Counted from the first letter of the stretch, positions 6,861 through 20,239 are shown. The stretch: DNA of 49,196 nt from Deltaproteobacteria bacterium (GCA_026995935.1 JALWNK010000032.1:1-49196), one strand, 5' to 3'. The notes: a model not told the origin generated them from the sequence alone. Program-made: numbers and translations.

Positions 6861-6878
6861 AAATTTCACTCTATCCTA

Positions 6879-6907
6879 TTGACACAGCAATAATCAAATC
6901 TTATTTA
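6879..6907 (+). promoter_or_regulatory. Predicted sigma70-type promoter of the 7107-13344 operon
   Basis: A perfect TTGACA at 6879-6884 is followed, after 17 bases, by TATTTA (6902-6907) in an AT-rich stretch. No gene occupies 6861-7106, and the first gene of the operon begins about 190 bases beyond the predicted start, so the transcript would carry a long leader. The 13-mer TTATTTAATAATA overlapping this -10 (6905-6917) also occurs at the promoter of the Fur-family gene. Confidence 0.45.
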
Positions 6908-7030
6908 TTTAATAATAGAAAATTTTGATTAAGAATCTTTCCCTCGCTCATTGTTCTGGTCGTCAAAACGTCAGCTCTGTGGCTGTTTTTCAAGATGCGG
7001 ATCTTCTCATCATCGGATTACGGAAGGAAG

Positions 7031-7066
7031 CAGGACTCTTTTAAGTGTTCTCACTTTCAAGTCCTG
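7031..7066 (+). promoter_or_regulatory. Two-step hairpin in the leader of the 7107 operon
   Basis: CAGGACT (7031-7037) pairs with AGTCCTG (7060-7066), and inside it AAGTG (7043-7047) pairs with CACTT (7052-7056) around a TTCT loop. The arms are exact and separated by a small internal loop. No T-run follows, so it is not an intrinsic terminator. It ends 30 bases before the ribosome-binding site GGAGGT (7097-7102). It could stabilise the mRNA or bind a regulator. No known riboswitch consensus was recognised. Confidence 0.4.
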
Positions 7067-7106
7067 ACGTGGTCTTTAATAAATTAATCTGTGGAAGGAG
7101 GTCCAA

Positions 7107-9341
7107 ATGGCTCGTCCAAAAGGTTCCGGCGTAAGAATCAGGGCAGGCATAAAGGGCATGGAGAACGCAGAAGGCCCTTTAAAGGCCGTACTCATCTCTG
7201 CGCGAAGGGATGGGATGGAGGTAATTGCTGAAAAAAGGATCAAAAAGGACTCCCTCGAAATGAGGCTCGATATGCAGCCCGAACAGTTCCCGGAAGGTGC
7301 AGTCCTTGCTGTGGTCCCAGAAAATGTAAAGGGTGCCATACAGGTAAACCGCCTGGTAAAATCAGACCTTTTTCCATCCTTGAAAATTTCAAAGGAGCTT
7401 GTTCTTTCAAGGGAGGGGATTCTTGAAGAGGCAGACCTTTCCTTTCGTCCACTGGGGGAAATTCCAGACCTCTGGAAACGCACCCACAAGGTGTGCGGAA
7501 GGGTGGTGAAGCGCGATCCCCACACTGGCAGCGAGTGTCCTGTCCCTGGTGCCAAGGTTACGGTTCTGGACGTGGATCTCAATTTTTTCTGGTGGCATCC
7601 GATTCCAAGCCATCCATTCTGCTGGATTTTCCCGTTTTGGCCTAGAAGAGAGAAGCTTGGCAGTACCATAACCGATGAATGTGGCCGTTTCTGTCTGGAA
7701 ATTCCTGCCCTTGATATTGACGCAATGCTGAAATGGAGGTTGCACCTAAGGTGCCTTCCTGAGCTCCTGAAACCCGTTACTATTCTGGATGCCATTGCTG
7801 CAGGAGTAAGGCCGGACCCATCTGTTTCAAAAGAGCTTGAAAGGCTTCCGGATCTTAAGCCAAGGTTAAAGCCGTGGCCCATCCCCGGACCCGACCCGCG
7901 ACCAGAGGGTGGCATGGAGCAGGGCTTAGATCACCCTTGCCCTCATAAAGAAGGGGGTTTTTCGAAACACACAGCCAGGCTGGAAAGGGAGAAGGCCCCA
8001 TTTGATGCAGGCCATCTGTTGCAGAATCCTGCCTTTGAGAGGTTGTTCCATGAACTTCAGGCAGGCAGTGCCGCTTTTCAACCAGCAGACCTAAAGATTC
8101 AGGATCTCCTTGAAAGAAGTGCCTTCCCAAGACCAATTCCTCCTCCCGAGATGCCCTGCCACGAGGAGCTCGTGGAGATGCTTCACGATGAAAAGGTGGT
8201 AGAGGCCGTGCTGAAATCAAACCCGATTGTCAGGTTATTTCGCTGTTTTGTTGAGATGGTTCCTGAGTGGCACCTCTTTTTTGATATCCCTGACATAGTC
8301 TTCAAGGTGGAGCAGGATATTGACGGAGACGGCCAGCTTGAGACCATCTATGACCAGGGTTATTTCAACGTCAACTGGAATCTTTCTGCCCCTACAACCA
8401 ATGTGGTAATAGATGCGTGGGAAAACGCCATCTGCGTGCCGTGTGGGCCGCCTTATCAGCCCTGCACCACCACGGGGATTGTAGGCATAAATGAGATGGC
8501 CGTGGATCCGCTCTATCTCTCAAACACAGGTTATGCGATCAGGGTAAACAGGCCCAAGCCCAATGGTACAAGACCCGACGCCGAGACGCCCTTCTGTTAC
8601 ACCCTTCGTCTAGTGGGATGCCCTGCCTACGGGAAGGCAGCTTACTACAAGGTATTTTACAGCTATGAAAATAGACCAGAAACCCACTTTACAGAGTCGT
8701 GGTATGAATACCAGATAAGCACCCACACACCTTTTCAGGTTGCACCGGATAGTAAGGGTTTCTACAAGATACTGAAACCCGAATACGACTACTTCCCTTA
8801 TCACACACTCTTGAACTGGCGTACCAACAGGTATCCAGACGGAAGGTACAGCGTGAAACTGTCCCTTTACGACAAGAATCATAATCCCCTAGGGCTTTCT
8901 CTGCCGCCTGTCCCTGTGGTGGTTGACAATTCCAGACCCCACCCCATCGATTTCACCAGTCTGAGATGGCGCAAGTCTGTAGGTTCGTGGAATACTCTAG
9001 AGCTAGACTGTCCCATTATCTACAGACAGGGCCATGATATTGAAATAGAAATTGGCTATATGGTTGGTGCCCGCCATTTACGGGATTTCACCATTTTTTT
9101 CAGGGGATGTGGAGGATTTATAGACAGCTATAACTACTGGCATCACTCGGTGGGAGATAATCTCAGGGCGGGTACGTGGAATGTTCCCATGCCAAATTCC
9201 TTTCACCAAGGAGGCTACTATTTCCACATCCAGGCAAGAAGCAGGGCATTTAACGCAGTGGGTGGGCTGGCTACCAACTGGAAATTCGACCCTGTGTACA
9301 TAAAAAGCGACAGGATCCTGACCGTGGTGGTTCTGGATTAG
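7107..9341 (+). CDS. Large protein of unknown function with a carboxypeptidase-regulatory-like domain
   Basis: This 744-residue protein has no signal peptide and no membrane segment. Residues about 125-235 resemble a CarboxypepD_reg/transthyretin-like beta sandwich: KVCGRVVKRDPHTG, VPGAKVTVLDVD and later TDECGRFCLEIP. The middle (about 235-385) is proline- and charge-rich linker. The C-terminal half looks like further beta domains, with an acidic, possibly calcium-binding QDIDGDGQLETI, then a DGRYSVKLSLYDKN strand pattern and an aromatic-rich end. It starts at ATG after AGGAGGT. It heads an operon with a peptidase and a PKD-type membrane protein and may be their substrate or partner, but no function is recognised. 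Confidence 0.75.
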   Translation: MARPKGSGVRIRAGIKGMENAEGPLKAVLISARRDGMEVIAEKRIKKDSLEMRLDMQPEQFPEGAVLAVVPENVKGAIQVNRLVKSDLFPSLKISKELVLSREGILEEADLSFRPLGEIPDLWKRTHKVCGRVVKRDPHTGSECPVPGAKVTVLDVDLNFFWWHPIPSHPFCWIFPFWPRREKLGSTITDECGRFCLEIPALDIDAMLKWRLHLRCLPELLKPVTILDAIAAGVRPDPSVSKELERLPDLKPRLKPWPIPGPDPRPEGGMEQGLDHPCPHKEGGFSKHTARLEREKAPFDAGHLLQNPAFERLFHELQAGSAAFQPADLKIQDLLERSAFPRPIPPPEMPCHEELVEMLHDEKVVEAVLKSNPIVRLFRCFVEMVPEWHLFFDIPDIVFKVEQDIDGDGQLETIYDQGYFNVNWNLSAPTTNVVIDAWENAICVPCGPPYQPCTTTGIVGINEMAVDPLYLSNTGYAIRVNRPKPNGTRPDAETPFCYTLRLVGCPAYGKAAYYKVFYSYENRPETHFTESWYEYQISTHTPFQVAPDSKGFYKILKPEYDYFPYHTLLNWRTNRYPDGRYSVKLSLYDKNHNPLGLSLPPVPVVVDNSRPHPIDFTSLRWRKSVGSWNTLELDCPIIYRQGHDIEIEIGYMVGARHLRDFTIFFRGCGGFIDSYNYWHHSVGDNLRAGTWNVPMPNSFHQGGYYFHIQARSRAFNAVGGLATNWKFDPVYIKSDRILTVVVLD

Positions 9342-9440
9342 GAATCCAGATGAATGCCCCGGAGAAGAAAGTCTGCAGGCAAAAACGCCTGATTAAAAAG
9401 GGTTCATGCCCATATAAAGGGTATGGAGAAAGGAGGAAAC

Positions 9441-10319
9441 ATGGGAAATGTAATTGATGGAAAATACGGGCTTGGATGGTTGAGGGATTATCCGGACTTC
9501 AGGGACTACACCCTGGAACATGAGAAAATCAGGCCCATGATGGAAAAGGCGGGTGTTTCTCTGACTGCCAAAAAGGGAAGGCCTTCATCCGTAGACCTCA
9601 GGCAGTACTGCTCCAAAATAGAGGACCAGGGTGCTCTAGGCTCCTGCACCGCCAATGCCGCCGTAGGGATAATTGAGTACTATGAGAGACGGGCCTTTGG
9701 AAAGCATATAGACGCTTCAAGGCTGTTCCTCTACAAGGCCACCAGGAATCTGCTTCACTGGACCGGAGATACGGGTGCCTTCCTCAGGACGACCATGGGG
9801 GCCATGGTGCTTTTTGGATGCCCGCCCGAGGAGTTCTGGCCCTACAATATTTCCGACTTTGACAAGGAGCCATCTTCCTTTTGCTACGCCTTTGCACAAA
9901 ACTACCAGGCAATCCGCTATTTCAGGCTTGACCCTCCGGGAACTGCCAAGAAGACCCTCCTTGACAGGATAAGGATACTCCTTCAGTACGGTTTTCCTTC
10001 CATGTTCGGTTTTACCGTGTTCAGCTCCATAAGGCAGGCCGGTTCAAACGGCATGATCCCCTATCCCGCCCCTGGAGAGAGGGTGCTTGGGGGCCACGCC
10101 ATCGTTGCGGTAGGTTATGACAACAACAAGAAGATCAAGAACGCAACCAGTGGAAAGGAGACCAAGGGCGCATTCCTGATTCGAAATTCCTGGGGAACCG
10201 GATGGGGAGACTCAGGCTACGGCTGGCTTCCTTACGAATACGTGCTCCATGGAATGGCCGTTGACTGGTGGAGCCTCCTGAAGGCCGAATGGGTGGACAC
10301 TGGCGTGTTTGGACGGTAA
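9441..10319 (+). CDS. C1-family (papain-like) cysteine peptidase without signal or propeptide
   Basis: The 292 residues carry the complete papain catalytic set: oxyanion Gln63 and nucleophile Cys69 in EDQGALGSCTANAA, His219 in GGHAIVAVGYD, and Asn249 in IRNSWGTGWGDSGYGWLPYE. The N-terminus GLGWLRDYPDFRDYT is common in bacterial C1 peptidases. The ATG at 9441 is chosen over 9423 because GGAGG (9430-9434) lies six bases upstream of it. There is no signal peptide and no obvious inhibitory prodomain, so it should be cytoplasmic or exported by a non-Sec route. Three bases separate it from the next gene. Its substrate is unknown; the flanking large proteins are candidates. Confidence 0.88.
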   Translation: MGNVIDGKYGLGWLRDYPDFRDYTLEHEKIRPMMEKAGVSLTAKKGRPSSVDLRQYCSKIEDQGALGSCTANAAVGIIEYYERRAFGKHIDASRLFLYKATRNLLHWTGDTGAFLRTTMGAMVLFGCPPEEFWPYNISDFDKEPSSFCYAFAQNYQAIRYFRLDPPGTAKKTLLDRIRILLQYGFPSMFGFTVFSSIRQAGSNGMIPYPAPGERVLGGHAIVAVGYDNNKKIKNATSGKETKGAFLIRNSWGTGWGDSGYGWLPYEYVLHGMAVDWWSLLKAEWVDTGVFGR

Positions 10320-10321
10320 CG

Positions 10322-12775
10322 GTGAAGAAAGAACTCGGCTGGCTACTCTCTACGCCTTTTCTCTTTGTATGCCTTGTGACAGTGGCGTGGAGTCAGCCGT
10401 CGGGTTTTACCCGTGATTTTGAGACGGGAAACCTTTGGGGGTGGCAAAAAACAGGAAATGCCTTTAACAACCAGCCCACCTTTAAGGACAACCCAACTGC
10501 AAGACACAGGGGTGAGCCTTCTAACCACCAGGGGGAATATTGGATAGGCACCTTTGAGGATTATCAGGGCCGGCCTGGCCAGGTTCCGGGCCGGATCCAG
10601 GGAGACTTGCCTACAGGAACCCTTACTTCTTCCCCTTTTAAGGTCTCATTCGACTACGTAGATTTTCTTGTGGGAGGAGGAAAAGGGTCTGCCACCCGCG
10701 TGGAACTGCTGGTCCTTGACCCCATAGAGCAGACCTTTGTTCCACGCAGAACTGCCTCGGGCGCAAACAGCGAGACCATGCACAGGGTCAGATGGGACGT
10801 CTCCGAATTCAGAGGCAGAATGGCAAGGATACGAATAGTTGACGCATCATCCAGCCCCTGGGGCCATATAAACGCAGACGATTTCAGATTCTATTCTAAG
10901 TTAAAGCCCCTGGTGCCGCATCTTCCTGTCTTGCCCGGCATTCAGCCTCCATCTATCAGTGTATTCAAGGGAGAGAAGGCAACCTTCAAGACTAAGGGGC
11001 CAGTTTCCCATGGTGCCCTTTACTGGGTCGATCCCTGGGGTCACAGGGTAAAGGGGCCAGTTTTGGAAGTAGATACCTCCCTGTTGAATCCTGGCACCTA
11101 CAAGATAGAGCTTTGGAGGGAGAATGTTTATTCCAGCCTTGCGCATGTCTCTAAGCCTGCTGTTGCAACACTCATAGTTCTTCCGCCCAAGGTCCACTAC
11201 AGGTTGAGGCTCACTGCGTATCCGCAAAATGTGGAAGAAAACGGCCAGGTGCGTTTCAAGGCGCATCTTCTTCCTGAAAGCCCGACTGCCAGATACCGTT
11301 TCGACACTGGTGATGGAACGGTTACAGGCTGGACGCCACAGGGCTTCTTTGTTCATAAGTACACCAAACCCGGCACCTATACGGCCACAGCCCAGGCAAG
11401 GGTCGGTGAAAACACGGAAGTGCCAGGCAACCCAGTTCACATAACCGTCTCTCCCATCCACTATACTCTTGAGATAAGGGCCAGCAAGAAAAGGGCAGAA
11501 CCTGGGGAGATGGTTGGACTAAGGGCGTTTCTCAGCCCTAAGAGGCCTCAAGCCCGCTATGAATGGGTCATAAACCCTGGCCAGATCAGGCTGGCCGGTA
11601 ACGGGGATGCCTTAAGGTACCGTTTTCGACGAGAAGGCGATTTTTCTGTTTTATGCAGGGCCTACCTGTACGGCAAACAGATCGCAGTCAGCAATGTAGT
11701 AAACGTGAAAGTGGCAATCAGCCAGCCGCCTCCCAGGATCGAGATACTTCCTAAAAGCCGCACAGCGGTCAAGGGAGAAAGGGTGCGTTTTACCGCGCGC
11801 ATTTTTCCAGGTGGTGATCAGACCCAAAGGCTGTCCTGGTTGAGCACTTTTTGCGAGGTCAGTGGCAGTTACTGTGAGGTGAATACGGGAAACCTTGAAC
11901 CGGGCAGTCACAAAATCCGGGCCGAGGTAACCGACCGGTACGGCAGAAGGGCTGAGGCAGAGGCCCTTCTAAGGGTGGTTCCCGTTCCGAGGAGGGTGGT
12001 CCTTGCCGCTAAGCCCCAAATGGCGACCGCTGGCGAGGATGTCCAGTTTTTTGCTACCGTAAAGCCTGCAGTTCATGGGGCAAGGTACAGATTCGTCTTT
12101 GGGGATAATACTCCAAGCCAGTGGGAGGATGCCAGTTTTACAAGACACAGTTACTGGCGCCCAGGCCGTTACTGTTCATTTGTTGAAGTTTCCCTGAAAG
12201 ACGGAAAAACTATCAGGAGCAGCAAGGTGTGCCTGGAAATTAGCCGTGCCCCTTCCTGCTGGGTTCGAGTCGTCGCCAATAAAAGGAATGTAGCGCCTGG
12301 GGATGAGATATCGTTCAGGGCAGTCTTTGAACCCCCCACTCCAGATATTTTATACAGGTTTGACTTTGGGGATGGCCATGTTCGAGAGTGGAGTAAGGAT
12401 TCAAAGACCGTGCACAGATATGATGCTCCAGGAACCTACTACGTTTGGGTCGTTGCAAGGGGGGCTGAGACTGGAAGAATCGAGAGTGCGAAACTGGAAA
12501 TAAAGGTCAGAGAATCTGGCCGCTACTGGTGGCTTTTGGTCCTTTTGATACCGGCCCTTTATTTGCCCTACAGGGTGTGGAAAGGCAGGTCATCGGGCTC
12601 AAAGAAGGACCAGACGGCCCCAGGGGCTTCTGTGTTCAGGATCAATGCGGAAAAGGACCTCGGTTCCCAGGAAATTTCGTGCAGGGAGGCGCAATTTCTT
12701 TCAGGAACCGAAATATCAATCACAACCGTAAAGGACCTTGGAACCCAGGAGATTTCGGGAGAAACACAGCAATGA
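10322..12775 (+). CDS. Exported single-pass membrane protein with Ig/PKD-like repeats and a cytoplasmic tail
   Basis: The GTG at 10322, just after the preceding stop, gives 817 residues and a normal signal peptide (VKKELGWLLSTPFLFVCLVTVAWS). The first 180 mature residues (DFETGNLWGWQKTGNAF, then GTLTSSPFKVSFDYVDFLVGGG, WDVSEF and HINADDFRFY) match the beta-sandwich that accompanies some glycoside hydrolases and surface proteins. Five or so Ig/PKD-like domains follow, including YRFDTGDGTVTGW and YRFDFGDGHVREW. A transmembrane helix (YWWLLVLLIPALYLPYRVW) near the end is followed by a basic stop-transfer and about 60 cytoplasmic residues with a repeated KDLG[ST]QEIS motif. The topology suggests a periplasmic receptor or scaffold. 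The stop overlaps the next start (ATGA). Confidence 0.8.
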   Translation: MKKELGWLLSTPFLFVCLVTVAWSQPSGFTRDFETGNLWGWQKTGNAFNNQPTFKDNPTARHRGEPSNHQGEYWIGTFEDYQGRPGQVPGRIQGDLPTGTLTSSPFKVSFDYVDFLVGGGKGSATRVELLVLDPIEQTFVPRRTASGANSETMHRVRWDVSEFRGRMARIRIVDASSSPWGHINADDFRFYSKLKPLVPHLPVLPGIQPPSISVFKGEKATFKTKGPVSHGALYWVDPWGHRVKGPVLEVDTSLLNPGTYKIELWRENVYSSLAHVSKPAVATLIVLPPKVHYRLRLTAYPQNVEENGQVRFKAHLLPESPTARYRFDTGDGTVTGWTPQGFFVHKYTKPGTYTATAQARVGENTEVPGNPVHITVSPIHYTLEIRASKKRAEPGEMVGLRAFLSPKRPQARYEWVINPGQIRLAGNGDALRYRFRREGDFSVLCRAYLYGKQIAVSNVVNVKVAISQPPPRIEILPKSRTAVKGERVRFTARIFPGGDQTQRLSWLSTFCEVSGSYCEVNTGNLEPGSHKIRAEVTDRYGRRAEAEALLRVVPVPRRVVLAAKPQMATAGEDVQFFATVKPAVHGARYRFVFGDNTPSQWEDASFTRHSYWRPGRYCSFVEVSLKDGKTIRSSKVCLEISRAPSCWVRVVANKRNVAPGDEISFRAVFEPPTPDILYRFDFGDGHVREWSKDSKTVHRYDAPGTYYVWVVARGAETGRIESAKLEIKVRESGRYWWLLVLLIPALYLPYRVWKGRSSGSKKDQTAPGASVFRINAEKDLGSQEISCREAQFLSGTEISITTVKDLGTQEISGETQQ
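12653..12757 (+). repeat. Two imperfect 27-base direct repeats encoding the KDLG[ST]QEIS motif
   Basis: The copies lie at 12653-12679 and 12731-12757 inside the coding sequence for the cytoplasmic tail of the PKD-type membrane protein. They differ at four bases and encode the same nine-residue motif with one Ser/Thr change. Conservation of the peptide with small base differences suggests a duplicated short binding motif rather than a fresh slippage event. Confidence 0.6.
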
Positions 12776-13344
12776 GAGATAAAAACAACGGTTCGGTCAG
12801 GGACTTTTTTCTTTCCACCCCAAAAAAGGAAGAAATATTCTCAGCCCTCAAAGCCTCTGAATCCATCAACCTTCTTAAAAGGGATTTTCTTAAAAGGGCC
12901 GAGGGCATCAAGAGGGAAACTGCATTTGCGGAATTGGAAGAGAGGGTGAAGGAACTTCTTGATTTTAGTTTTGTTGATGTCCTGGCTCAGGCGTTAAAAA
13001 AATATGCAGCCTTACAAAAGTATACGGACAAAGAGAAATATCCCCCCAACAAGGTAGTGCTGGCACCCCTTGGTGTGCACGAAATAAAGTCTGTCCATCA
13101 TCCCTATCTGGAAGTCTTGGTGGATGACCATGTTCTTGGAAAGATTGTCTTTGACCTGGTGATAACCCTCAGGCTTGAAGGCCTTATCCTAAAGATTCAA
13201 GATGGCAAAATAAGGGAGGTGAGGACAGGAAAGTGCGCAGGGAAAGGGGTTTTCAAGCTAAAGGACCTTGTGATTTTCCAGAAGGAGAGCAGGGAAATCC
13301 CCTTGCCTGGCGTGGTATCCTTTGAGAAGGGTCTGCCAATTTAA
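12772..13344 (+). CDS. Hypothetical cytoplasmic protein (190 residues), last gene of the 7107 operon
   Basis: The start ATG overlaps the stop of the PKD-type gene (ATGA), which points to translational coupling. The open frame extends upstream, but only inside the neighbour. The first half is charged and helical (EEIFSALKASESINLLKRDFLKRAEGIKRETAFAELEERV would form helices), and the second half looks like a beta barrel or sandwich: APLGVHEIKSVHHPYLEVLVDD, KIVFDLVITLRLEGLILKIQDG. No signal peptide, catalytic motif or known family was recognised. Coupling to a membrane protein with a cytoplasmic tail suggests it could bind that tail, which is inference. Confidence 0.7.
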   Translation: MRDKNNGSVRDFFLSTPKKEEIFSALKASESINLLKRDFLKRAEGIKRETAFAELEERVKELLDFSFVDVLAQALKKYAALQKYTDKEKYPPNKVVLAPLGVHEIKSVHHPYLEVLVDDHVLGKIVFDLVITLRLEGLILKIQDGKIREVRTGKCAGKGVFKLKDLVIFQKESREIPLPGVVSFEKGLPI

Positions 13345-14200: not shown

Positions 14201-15829
14201 TTACTTTTCCATGTGAGCAGATACTTTTATGATCCGAGGAGGATATTCCATGGTCTTTTCTGGATCCCTAGGCATGAAGTTGAACAGATAGACAGCTTTT
14301 AACTCTGTCTGTTTAACGTTTCCTGCCATCTCTTCATAACCCCACTGCCAGTCTGCCAGCTTGTAAGCCTCCTTGTTTTCTATTTTTTGCAATGCCTCCT
14401 TGTAGGCAAGGTTAAAGGGCTTTCCCCTTGTTGTGCGCTTAATGCCCTTAATTTTTCTCCATACCTTGGATGAGTTGTAGACTGTGCCGTCATTGTTGAG
14501 TTGAAAGGAAATCTGGCCGCCTTCCCCCACGAAGGGCACTTTCTTGCCCTTTATATCCAACTGCCTTCTGACAGTTATGATTATGTTTTTTTGGCACTTT
14601 TTCCTTTCAGAATACTTATGTCCCTGCGGTACCCTTTCTATCATCATTTTAACACCCCTCGGTCGTGACATGCCTTTTTCCGACCATCCTTGTTTCTCTA
14701 TAAGGCCTTTGACAATCTCTAGGTAGGCAGTTTCTTTCAGTGGCGGCTTCTCCTCCACAAAGGATCTCTTCCCGGCCGTATATATAGCCCCTGACGTGCG
14801 GTTTATTTTTACTGCAGGCCCTCGTCCTTCCACCTGCTGGACACTGTATAGCCACTGGTCCTTTTCTTGGAATTTCATTTTCTGGTAGGGATCAGGTAGT
14901 GGAAGTGGGATCAGCTCATAGATCGGGATGAATTCAGGTACGGGTATTGGTTTCAGAACGGGTGCGTTGCTGTCAAAGTTGGACAAGTACTGGATGTGGA
15001 GAAACTCCCCGGAGGGATTGGGCAGGTTGGTAAACTTTGTATCAAAGAGAGGGGTGCTTGCTACCTGGAAACCGCCTGTGGTTATGCAAAGCGGGGTGTT
15101 CCAGCTGTAACGGTGCAGGCCGTCAATAAAGGAGTCTGCCACGTCAAAGCCTTTGTTGTTGTAGTTATCCCAGATCTTGTTTGTCTCTGTCTCATGGCAA
15201 TAGGCAAGGGTGGAAGAACCGCATGCCATGCGAAGGTCAGGGGAAAGGATGGGCCCCCAGCGTTCATAGACGTTTCGCATTGCATCAGAATCGGCAGATC
15301 CGTCAAAGTCCTGCGGGCATGCATAATGGGCGCTTACACCTGTACAGTTTTTAGGGCCGTGGGCAAAGACCTCGCATGAACACTGCCAGTAATAGCGAAG
15401 GGTGCCGTCATTCGATCCTGAGCAGTTACCGAGCCTCATGTTCTCCAGGGATGCGTAGTTCCCCAAGGTGCTGAAAAGGGTGGGGTTTCCGTGCCCTGCA
15501 TAAAAGAAAAGCATCGGCTTGTCTATGCCGTTAGTGTAATTATCATCTAGTCCAGATGGTGTGACATCCCTGTCATAATAATAGATATTGGTGCCGGTTA
15601 AGCCTACATGCATGTGTGTCTTTGTCCAGGTGTCAGGACAGTGGTTTGCTGCACTGGTGGCACCCCCCATTTCCTTTCCGGTTAGGAATTCCTCTGCAGT
15701 GTCAATATGCCAGTCCGTGTTGCCGTGAGCTGTCTTAACAGAATTGAGTGGTGGATTCTTTGGGCAGCAAGAGAGCATAAAAAGACAGCAAACCAGTCCT
15801 AAGAGACAAAATGAAAATAAATTTTTCAT
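14201..15829 (-). CDS. Lipoprotein with DUF6345-like, possibly caspase-fold domain
   Basis: This 542-residue protein has a lipoprotein signal (FMLSCCP, modified cysteine at 21). Residues about 35-270 contain PMLFFYAGHGNPTLFS with His113 and LRMACGSSTLAYC with Cys203. A GHG after a hydrophobic strand and a Cys at the end of a later hydrophobic strand is the dyad layout of clan CD peptidases (caspase, gingipain). I read it as the DUF6345 family; protease activity is inference. The C-terminal half (330-540) is a basic region with IIITVRRQLDIKGKKVPFVGEGG and resembles no family I know. The ribosome-binding site is AAAGGAGG just upstream of the ATG. It follows a long structured leader on the same strand. 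Confidence 0.72.
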   Translation of the reverse strand: MKNLFSFCLLGLVCCLFMLSCCPKNPPLNSVKTAHGNTDWHIDTAEEFLTGKEMGGATSAANHCPDTWTKTHMHVGLTGTNIYYYDRDVTPSGLDDNYTNGIDKPMLFFYAGHGNPTLFSTLGNYASLENMRLGNCSGSNDGTLRYYWQCSCEVFAHGPKNCTGVSAHYACPQDFDGSADSDAMRNVYERWGPILSPDLRMACGSSTLAYCHETETNKIWDNYNNKGFDVADSFIDGLHRYSWNTPLCITTGGFQVASTPLFDTKFTNLPNPSGEFLHIQYLSNFDSNAPVLKPIPVPEFIPIYELIPLPLPDPYQKMKFQEKDQWLYSVQQVEGRGPAVKINRTSGAIYTAGKRSFVEEKPPLKETAYLEIVKGLIEKQGWSEKGMSRPRGVKMMIERVPQGHKYSERKKCQKNIIITVRRQLDIKGKKVPFVGEGGQISFQLNNDGTVYNSSKVWRKIKGIKRTTRGKPFNLAYKEALQKIENKEAYKLADWQWGYEEMAGNVKQTELKAVYLFNFMPRDPEKTMEYPPRIIKVSAHMEK

Positions 15830-17791: not shown

Positions 17792-20239
17792 ATGAGAATC
17801 TTTTTGACCCTGATATCGCTTATTCCCTTGTTAATAAATTTTCTGTCCGTACCAGCCGCGGCAGGTTTCGATCTGGATACGTTTCAAAAAACAGTTGAAC
17901 AGATCCAAAAGGCCACGGGGCAGGCCCCGAAGCCTGCTCCTGCAGTGGCAAGCTGGCCTGTTTCAGGCGTCATTACAATAGATGACGAATCAAGGCCCTG
18001 GTATTTCAAGATGGATTGGTTCGATGCTGCGGCATGCTCAAGGATCTACTACCAAGTAAATGAGGCGGCGCCAAGGTTCCTGGTGGAGTTTGCAGGGCCA
18101 CATCCACCAACAGGGGCGCCCATAAAGATTGAAGGGCTGAGGCCCAGAGATAGGATTAAGTTTTTGGTAAAGACCCACTGGAATGGCTGGCGAGGGCCAG
18201 TGGATTCAACCAACAACAGGTATTTTAAGGCCTTTCAAAAGGGCCCGCGAGTCTTTTATTTCCAGTTCGAGGACGCAGGCGGGGCTGACATGGCCTATAA
18301 TGACGGGGCCTTCTACTTCTATCAGGAGGGCTACGGCCCTCAGCCAAACAGGCTGGTATGGATAAAGAACTTTGATGCGTCAAAGGTCCCTGGAGGCATA
18401 CTCTTTAAGGGAACGGTACATGTCTCAAGGCCAGGGCCTGTGACATCCCAGATAGATATCAGGGACAATACATGGAACACCTACAGACTCATCAACCTGA
18501 GCTTCAACGCCCAAGGGCCTGGTGATTATCCCTTTGATTACACCCTGAGAGATCCGCTTCCTGCTCCCATGTACACATCCTTTTGGCAGGTATCCTTTTA
18601 CAACGAACGGGACGCAAGGGTGAGGGCCTTGAAGGGCTGTATTGAGAAGACAGGCCAGGGAAGCGGGATACGGCCATCTGGCGATCTTGTCCTGTATTAC
18701 AACTTTGACAATTGCAGGGCCCAGGATCAAAGCGGAAACGGTTTTGACGGGGCGATATTCGGCTCTCCCATGTGCATAGACGGGCTTCAGGTTCGCTCCC
18801 TTTATTTTAACAGTGCGGATCACAATAACGGCTGCGGAAGGCCAGGGGGTGATTTTATAGGCCTGCCAGCCCTTGGAAGCATATGGGAAAAAGGCATAAC
18901 CATTTGCGCCTGGGTAAAGTTTGAAGAGCCGAGGTCGTATGAAAAGATAGTGGACCTGGGTCGGTCAAACGGCGAAAATGGCGGATACAACGTTGTCTTT
19001 GGCAGAATTGGCAACACAAACAGGATAGAAATCGAAAGCTGGGTGAACACGGACGGAAGTTACAACAGGACAGTGGGCAGGCTTTCTTATCCCGGCATAG
19101 TAAACGGCGAGTGGCGCCATTACTGCGCAACCATAGACAACAAGACCCGCAAGATGAAACTCTACATAAACGGGAGCTTAAAGGCAGAAAAGATAGGAAA
19201 TGGGGTTGCCAACGTGGCCCGGTCAAGAAACTTTATTGCCCACTCCAACTGGTGCTTTAACGATCCTGACTTCAAGGGGGCCATTGACGAACTTCGCATC
19301 TACAAGAGAGCGCTTTCTGCAGGCGAAATTAGAAGGCTTTACAGCAAAAGCGTAGCCATGCCTTCCCATGTTGTCCAGGGCAGCGCCTTTGGCTCTACAA
19401 GGAAAAACCCCTTCATATTTCAGGGCACCATCTACTACCTGCCAAGTGGCACAAGCCGCCTTCCGGATTTTTCAAGGCTTGCCCCTGTGGGAAAGATATA
19501 CAACGCAATTCTTGACATAAAGCCCCAGAGGTTCGACAAGGGCTTTCCTGGCATAACCGACCGCTTCGAGTGGTTCGCAATAGATTACAAGGGGAAGATA
19601 TTTATTTCCAAACCCGGCACCTATACCTTCTCCCTTTTAAGTGACGACGGTTCACGTCTTATAATAGACAACAGGGTAGTGATAGATAACGACGGGATTC
19701 ACCCGCCCAGAGAGAAGATCGGTCAGATATTCCTTGGGAAGGGGCTTCATTCCATAGAGGTTCAGTATTTTCAGGGGCCCCGCTACTATGTTGCCCTTGC
19801 CCTCTCTCTGGTAAAAAATGGCAGAAAGATCCCCTTTGACATCAGGCAGTATGCGCCTGTGAGCATGAGGGAGGAAAGATGTCAGACAAGGCTTTCCATG
19901 GGAAGCGGGATACTTTTTGATTTTAACAGCTACAGCCTGAAGCCACGGGCAATAGAGGTCCTTGATTCTGTTCTTGGGCTTTTAAGGGGCACGGCCTATG
20001 AAAAAATAATTGTTGAGGGGCATACTGACAACATAGGCTCTAATGCATACAATGATAGGCTTTCCAGGCAGAGGGCGCAGGCGGTTGCCAGCTATCTTGT
20101 GTCAAGGGGCATTCCTTCAAGCGCCATAAAGGTCGTTGGTTACGGCAAGAGAAGGCCCCTTGTGCCAAACGACACCGAGGAGCACAGGGCCAGGAACAGG
20201 CGGGTGGAGATAGTGGTAAAAAGGCCCTGTAGTAAATAA
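17792..20239 (+). CDS. OmpA-family envelope protein with LamG and PA14 domains
   Basis: The 815-residue protein begins with a signal peptide ending near VPAAAG. Residues about 45-290 form an unassigned beta-rich region. About 300-515 is a LamG/concanavalin-like domain: DLVLYYNFDNCRAQDQSGNG, then TICAWVKFEEP, WRHYCATIDNKTRKMKLYIN and GAIDELRIYKRALS. About 585-690 is a PA14 domain (FEWFAIDYKGKIFISKPGTY, then FSLLSDDGSRLIIDN). The last 110 residues are an OmpA/MotB peptidoglycan-binding domain (GILFDFNSYSLKP, IIVEGHTDNIGS, NDRLSRQRAQAVASYLVSRG). Two carbohydrate-binding-type modules tethered to the cell wall suggest a role in adhesion or polysaccharide sensing. The next gene starts immediately after its stop. 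Confidence 0.88.
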   Translation: MRIFLTLISLIPLLINFLSVPAAAGFDLDTFQKTVEQIQKATGQAPKPAPAVASWPVSGVITIDDESRPWYFKMDWFDAAACSRIYYQVNEAAPRFLVEFAGPHPPTGAPIKIEGLRPRDRIKFLVKTHWNGWRGPVDSTNNRYFKAFQKGPRVFYFQFEDAGGADMAYNDGAFYFYQEGYGPQPNRLVWIKNFDASKVPGGILFKGTVHVSRPGPVTSQIDIRDNTWNTYRLINLSFNAQGPGDYPFDYTLRDPLPAPMYTSFWQVSFYNERDARVRALKGCIEKTGQGSGIRPSGDLVLYYNFDNCRAQDQSGNGFDGAIFGSPMCIDGLQVRSLYFNSADHNNGCGRPGGDFIGLPALGSIWEKGITICAWVKFEEPRSYEKIVDLGRSNGENGGYNVVFGRIGNTNRIEIESWVNTDGSYNRTVGRLSYPGIVNGEWRHYCATIDNKTRKMKLYINGSLKAEKIGNGVANVARSRNFIAHSNWCFNDPDFKGAIDELRIYKRALSAGEIRRLYSKSVAMPSHVVQGSAFGSTRKNPFIFQGTIYYLPSGTSRLPDFSRLAPVGKIYNAILDIKPQRFDKGFPGITDRFEWFAIDYKGKIFISKPGTYTFSLLSDDGSRLIIDNRVVIDNDGIHPPREKIGQIFLGKGLHSIEVQYFQGPRYYVALALSLVKNGRKIPFDIRQYAPVSMREERCQTRLSMGSGILFDFNSYSLKPRAIEVLDSVLGLLRGTAYEKIIVEGHTDNIGSNAYNDRLSRQRAQAVASYLVSRGIPSSAIKVVGYGKRRPLVPNDTEEHRARNRRVEIVVKRPCSK

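Follow-up and report, generated by a model that had tools for sequence, protein, structure and literature searches.

A conserved gene pair for a membrane protein and its predicted cytosolic partner lies beside a mobile xylellain-type peptidase in a deltaproteobacterium

Several known systems resemble parts of the locus described here: the xylellain-type C1A peptidases, the PASTA-domain membrane receptors (such as PknB-type Ser/Thr kinases), the CisA protein of the Streptomyces contractile injection system, the toxins and effectors associated with eCIS (PMC8213781, PMC11297309), and the NTP-dependent conflict systems with trypco or EAD domains (PMC7159879). For xylellain-type C1A enzymes, horizontal transfer, phages included, has already been described (PMC10380794). 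For CisA, a role in connecting a cytoplasmic machine with the membrane has been suggested; its N-terminus is cytoplasmic, and its C-terminus is periplasmic and resembles substrate-binding proteins (PMC12237407).

We analyzed a four-gene cluster in a stretch of 49,196 nucleotides from a Deltaproteobacteria bacterium (GCA_026995935.1, JALWNK010000032.1:1-49196; "the window"). The original prediction, made from the DNA alone, was that these genes form one undescribed system. The four same-strand ORFs that it proposed are all there, and they encode proteins of 744, 292, 817, and 190 amino acids:

6861..7106, + strand: leader of the cluster, with weak structure and no convincing promoter
7107..9341, + strand: gene 1, 744-aa protein, no signal peptide
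9441..10319, + strand: gene 2, 292-aa xylellain-type C1A (papain-like) peptidase (Peptidase_C1 domain, PF00112, E = 1.2e-12; PDB 3OIS, E = 5.8e-31)
10322..12775, + strand: gene 3 (GTG start), 817-aa single-pass membrane protein with a signal segment, a jelly roll, four PKD stretches, a TM segment, and a tail
12772..13344, + strand: gene 4, 190-aa predicted cytosolic partner (family alignment of 20 members; model with pLDDT 74.5)

The genes were expected to be tightly packed behind a shared promoter and a long hairpin leader. Genes 3 and 4 do overlap by ATGA (the start codon of gene 4 lies over the stop of gene 3), but 99 nt (81 nt from an alternative ATG) separate genes 1 and 2, and the 3-base gap reported between the peptidase's stop and the start of the membrane protein gene is actually 2 nt. 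The leader folds weakly (z = -2.14; 6 of 200 shuffles were equally stable). The best promoter site scores 9/12, and the search gave 6 sites versus 6.8 expected, which is not above chance. Nor does GC content mark an island (0.49-0.54 in the cluster versus 0.42-0.53 around it). Because of the 2-nt junction, the two halves (7107-10319 and 10322-13344) are likely to be co-expressed in this genome, and they are probably co-translated. For genes 1, 3, and 4, PADLOC gave nothing and PHROGs added nothing. We dropped the idea of a defence system, given the lack of a PADLOC match. According to Pfam, NTPase, MoxR, vWA, and STAND domains are absent from the four genes and from the four flanking genes that were scanned.

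Two neighbours of the cluster are worth describing. At 14201-15829 (- strand), adjoining the cluster, is a lipoprotein-like protein with a sub-threshold match to DUF6345 and a YAGHG...MACGS arrangement that is reminiscent of caspase/gingipain folds. At 17792-20239 (+ strand) is another large envelope protein, of 815 amino acids, with LamG, PA14, and OmpA domains.

On balance, we think that the cluster consists of two independent pieces: a mobile peptidase with the 744-aa protein (genes 1 and 2), and a conserved, receptor-like membrane module with its 190-aa partner (genes 3 and 4).

We begin with the pair. A single-sequence search with the 190-aa protein identified homologues in three genomes (G166, G062, and G273) and on Caballeronia plasmids. 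(The same search gave a marginal match in G210, which the profile search did not repeat.) Two copies from Embleya were found with a relative as the query, and scanning genome contigs for the conserved pattern added one Bacteroidetes MAG and one WOR-3 MAG. With a profile, we found the family in 12 of 247 Bacteroidota (E = 1e-46 to 1e-80) and in 4 of the 297 Desulfobacterota sampled, the window's own genome being one of the four. Among 147 genomes of the WOR-3 group, only the already-known one has the family. Because the genome samples were capped, these counts give a minimum for the distribution of the pair.

Wherever the family occurs with a partner, the arrangement is the same. A gene for a TM protein lies directly upstream of the 190-aa gene in all 12 Bacteroidota, in three Desulfobacterota besides the window, in the WOR-3 genome, and in both Embleya loci, and in every readable locus except Caballeronia (and the unconfirmed G210) the TM segment is near the partner's C-terminus. 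The spacing between the two genes ranges from -17 to +33 nt: the exact 4-nt overlap of the window recurs in L070, L076, and L077, and five other loci have an 8-nt overlap (L071, L072, L081, L099, and L108). The genes that flank the pair differ among loci. Judging from these comparisons, genes 3 and 4 travel together as a conserved and previously undescribed two-gene unit. (A literature search for PASTA or PKD tails with cytosolic partners turned up nothing relevant.) Caballeronia does not fit our two-piece view: on its plasmid (L074, 7851-8432), a lone 190-aa homologue faces a gene for a DUF4157 protein and has no membrane partner.

We then examined the membrane protein. As predicted, it is a single-pass PKD protein with a short tail. 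By hydropathy, a hydrophobic signal segment stands at its N-terminus and a single TM segment near its C-terminus, followed by a 67-residue tail with a basic start. Its main features are:

10394..10909, + strand: N-terminal ectodomain, a CBM/MAM-like jelly roll (Foldseek prob 1.00 to MAM/CBM28/CBM6; best VIA Z 7.9)
12524..12571, + strand: TM segment, by hydropathy; the first 20 residues of the tail include 5 K/R and 1 D/E (basic C-terminal side)
12656..12670, + strand: tail motif 1, DLGSQ (residues 779-783), of the form D-x-G-x-Q
12734..12748, + strand: tail motif 2, DLGTQ (residues 805-809), of the form D-x-G-x-Q, 26 residues after motif 1

The four PKD stretches score above Pfam's gathering score (PF00801, 117 bits), and the only other Pfam match in the ectodomain is a sub-threshold Y_Y_Y. 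The N-terminal ectodomain is 58% identical to that of a Bacteroidetes partner (L079). The jelly-roll model was built from two sequences and is confident in its second half only, which is the half that resembles CBM and MAM jelly rolls.

The ectodomains of the partners differ from locus to locus: they have one, two, three, or six PASTA repeats, CARDB with PASTA, PATR repeats, a jelly roll with PKD domains, or no assigned domain. (Some of the upstream ORFs reach the end of the contig, and the full ectodomain is not visible there.) Pfam finds no PASTA repeats in the window's ectodomain; these occur in its relatives only. In L099, L101, and L104, PATR repeats, which are known from autotransporter passengers, sit on a C-terminal TM helix with a D-x-G-x-Q tail and no beta-barrel. 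(PATR is a Pfam match in L099 and L101 and our reading of the sequence in L104.)

What the partners keep is the tail. Its pattern is phi-x-phi-x(2-4)-D-x-G-x-Q-x-phi. At least one D.G.Q motif is present in 14 of 15 distinct tails, and nine of the 15 have two, spaced 25-29 residues apart. Altogether there are 23 motifs in the 15 tails, versus a mean of 0.32 in shuffled tails (maximum 4 in 2000 shuffles). Among 786 control ORFs, two motifs within the final 80 residues occur in only 11, each of which is a partner membrane protein. The tails of L070, L071, L081, and Embleya have a single canonical motif, and the tail of L108 has degenerate motifs only. We found no match to a kinase domain in the window's tail, and a DNA pattern search of the window's own genome for other D-x-G-x-Q tails gave no more matches than the control. 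The motif could help to pick out more members from the PASTA, PKD, and PATR membrane proteins that are now called "hypothetical".

The suggestion that the 190-aa protein and the membrane protein's tail act together thus finds strong support in comparative genomics: the genes are adjacent across phyla, and the ectodomain changes while the tandem tail motif is kept. We tentatively propose that the pair represents a new class of bacterial transmembrane signalling or docking, found in at least four phyla, or five if the Caballeronia copy without a partner is counted, in which exchanged ectodomains share a tandem D-x-G-x-Q tail that would engage one dedicated 190-aa cytosolic partner.

For the 190-aa protein itself, the searches gave no clear match to a known family or fold. 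None of the 20 members of its family passes the curated cut-offs of Pfam or NCBIfam (the best E values, for one member each, are 0.031 and 0.027), and a comparison with the PDB gave no usable match. For the window's own copy, NCBIfam shows a single row below its cut-off, which carries no meaning. There was no match in viral contigs either, so we dropped the idea that the gene has a phage origin. An AlphaFold model from five sequences (mean pLDDT 74.5) has N-terminal helices and a ten-strand beta domain, and searching with this model gave no Foldseek match at E <= 0.001 (best VIA Z 4.2). We put a likeness to gasdermin pores (Z about 4, TM about 0.2) down to the long beta hairpins. In the family alignment, H103, P111, P92, S107, H109, G159, P179, and G187 are invariant or nearly so; a conserved tryptophan near position 75 is an alanine in the window. 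The family's tree is poorly resolved, and it places the window's copy apart from the other Desulfobacterota copies, without support.

Might the 190-aa protein serve only the tail, as its chaperone or assembly factor, with no downstream role? Its tight translational coupling and strict adjacency to the membrane protein gene would fit. However, the small protein persists in Caballeronia, where the partner is missing, and five of the conserved residues (H103, P92, P111, S107, and H109), along with the tail motif, suggest that the protein has a stable interface of its own. We consider a chaperone improbable.

The most likely role of the membrane protein is that it holds the 190-aa protein at the inner membrane and reports contact with the envelope or with a glycan. 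The ectodomain, in which a PKD stalk carries a CBM-like jelly roll, would lie outside the inner membrane and bind a glycan or an envelope component. On the other side, the tail's tandem D-x-G-x-Q motifs would form beta strands that dock the 190-aa beta domain, so that one or two partner molecules could be held by strand addition. Contact with the ligand or the envelope might then alter the clustering or the exposure of the tail, which would recruit or release the partner, and the partner would act on a further target.

A somewhat unlikely alternative is that the pair is a mechanical anchor and not a sensor, with the ectodomain on peptidoglycan or matrix and the partner tying the tail to a cytoplasmic structure. 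The ectodomains do include wall-binding PASTA domains along with stalk domains or repeats, no enzyme domain can be recognised in the partner, and tandem motifs suit multivalent binding. But no cytoplasmic structure is conserved beside the pair, swapping of ectodomains is more typical of receptors, and so sparse and patchy a distribution is hard to square with a basic structural role. If the pair is a receptor with an adaptor, as we favour, then it would be a bacterial counterpart of a design that is better known from eukaryotes: an exchangeable ectodomain, a short tail motif, and a separate cytosolic partner, with no enzyme in the tail itself. The motif and its partner are both short and readily expressed, which makes their binding directly testable.

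We turn to the peptidase. Its closest solved relative is xylellain (3OIS) from Xylella fastidiosa, and the similarity covers nearly the whole length: residues 8-279 align with residues 30-286 of 3OIS. The peptidase was described as complete, with neither a signal peptide nor a prodomain. It does lack a signal peptide, and the papain catalytic set (Q63, C69, H219, and N249) is invariant across 22 aligned sequences, two of which are from viral contigs. But its N-terminal segment (residues 8-45) aligns with that of xylellain, and within this segment, which is common to both proteins, G12, W13, P18, D19, and D22 are invariant across the same alignment. This segment probably holds the peptidase back.

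Relatives with 55-73% identity to the peptidase are present in about 25 of the 297 sampled Desulfobacterota. (At E < 1e-50 there are 26 genomes, one of which has a 44% identical relative.) Within that sample, genomes from the same genus, family, or order as the window's genome lack a close peptidase. Two viral-class contigs (L083, 7986-8867, and L084, 2509-3426; 20.8 and 320 kb) have relatives with 51-52% identity, and more distant relatives are found in two phage records and on plasmids. The neighbours vary as well: by our reading of the sequences, they include caspase-like genes, EEP-type and SNase-like nucleases, calcineurin-like phosphoesterases, and the alpha-amylase family. From this distribution, the peptidase is a mobile gene of a known type.

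Some of these neighbourhoods recur. In one genus of Desulfobacterota (L036, L039, L040, L041, and L042), there is a conserved island with the peptidase, an alpha-amylase-family protein, and a TM-anchored protein of 275-297 amino acids, and some of these loci add a trypco2-like protein of 153-157 amino acids and a gp19-like gene. A caspase-like gene is directly upstream of the peptidase in L043 (3813-5600), L045 (8417-11243), and L046 (9079-10895); in L045, an EEP-type nuclease-like gene is downstream. In L117 (6414-14500), L118 (2720-11458), and L119 (8426-14392), all from Bacteroidota, a 67-68% identical peptidase directly adjoins contractile-injection genes, and L118 has an amylase-family gene on the peptidase's other side.

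The 744-aa protein is harder to place. As stated at the outset of this work, it has no export signal. It has no match in Pfam, NCBIfam, PHROG, or PADLOC, and none among phages and plasmids, which is why we dropped a phage or plasmid origin for its gene. There are only two clear relatives: one in G022 (E = 2.5e-9 in a single-sequence search) and one in G073, which is encoded a few genes upstream of a peptidase and adjoins a gp19-like gene. A three-row profile, run against 58 chosen genomes, added three distant matches (G013, G171, and G417).

Does the peptidase act on the 744-aa protein? A cysteine-peptidase-like gene is in the same cluster at 4 of the 6 loci of the 744-aa family (the window, G022, G073, and G013), which lends this proposal slight support. 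Against it, the kind of peptidase varies: C1, C39-like, or caspase-like (the last two by reading the sequences). The 744-aa protein, which is large and beta-rich, may be a scaffold or a substrate of the adjoining peptidase, which its N-terminal segment would hold back.

In another explanation, genes 1 and 2 would be of the payload type that belongs to contractile injection or other conflict clusters, and the pair would dock such a machine at the membrane, in a role like that of CisA. The peptidase adjoins sheath, tube, and DUF4255-like genes in three Bacteroidota, L036 has a gp19-like gene beside a 744-aa homologue and the peptidase, other neighbours of the peptidase are caspase-like or nuclease-like, and the Caballeronia homologue of the 190-aa protein adjoins a DUF4157 protein, which is a marker for eCIS (PMC8213781). 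On the other hand, the window's ORFs have no match to the sheath, tube, and DUF4255 query proteins from L118 and L119; aside from the DUF4157 neighbour in Caballeronia, no pair locus adjoins eCIS genes; and the topology is opposite to that of CisA (PMC12237407). A docking device of this kind therefore seems quite unlikely.

Finally, what of all four genes as one system, in which the membrane protein senses and the peptidase processes the 744-aa protein? The genes are on the same strand with just 2 nt between the peptidase and the membrane protein gene, which a purely accidental neighbourhood would not predict, and relatives of the 744-aa protein lie near peptidases. Also, each of the three sampled Desulfobacterota relatives that have the pair has the peptidase too, at another place in its genome, which amounts to only two independent genera (G062 and G273 belong to the same genus, and the window's genome was selected because it has both). 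But we searched for the same gene order and found it in no other genome that we examined: homologues are scattered, and only the last pair keeps its order. Of the 12 Bacteroidota genomes with the pair, 3 have a close peptidase, which lies on a different contig from the pair; of 20 genomes that lack the pair, 1 has a close peptidase. Most peptidase loci lack the pair, and most of the peptidase-bearing genomes tested lack the 744-aa family. The Bacteroidota figures and the absence of the 744-aa family from most peptidase genomes indicate that the pair is the unit of conservation and that the peptidase and the 744-aa gene are separate. Since no other sampled genome repeats the gene order, we dropped the single four-gene system, which we now regard as very unlikely. 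Under the two-piece reading, the placement of the peptidase and the 744-aa gene before the pair may be recent, and any crosstalk between the two pieces is hypothetical.

How do the two pieces compare with known systems? The match between the window's peptidase and xylellain runs over almost the full length and takes in the N-terminal segment; the catalytic residues are intact, and there is no signal peptide. The window's peptidase differs in its recurrent neighbourhoods, with amylase, caspase-like, and contractile-injection genes, and its proteolytic activity is a prediction from sequence. In this half of the cluster we see a xylellain-type enzyme that turns up again in gene clusters of very different kinds, contractile-injection loci included. 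As with eCIS-associated toxins and effectors, close relatives of the peptidase lie beside eCIS structural genes in three Bacteroidota, but most of the peptidase loci that we read show no eCIS genes. The NTP-dependent conflict systems share the caspase-like neighbours and, by our reading, a candidate trypco2-like short protein in L036; in contrast to them, the cluster and its scanned flanks have none of the NTPase, MoxR, vWA, or STAND domains. CisA, like the membrane protein, is a single-pass protein, but the window's protein has the reversed order, with an N-terminal signal segment, a C-terminal TM segment, and the tail inside, and it has a separate 190-aa partner. The pair also recalls the PASTA receptors, as several partner ectodomains have PASTA repeats on a single TM segment and the ectodomain is swappable. 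Unlike the PknB-type kinases, the pair has a short D-x-G-x-Q tail (67 residues in the window) in place of a kinase, and its cytosolic half is a separate protein.
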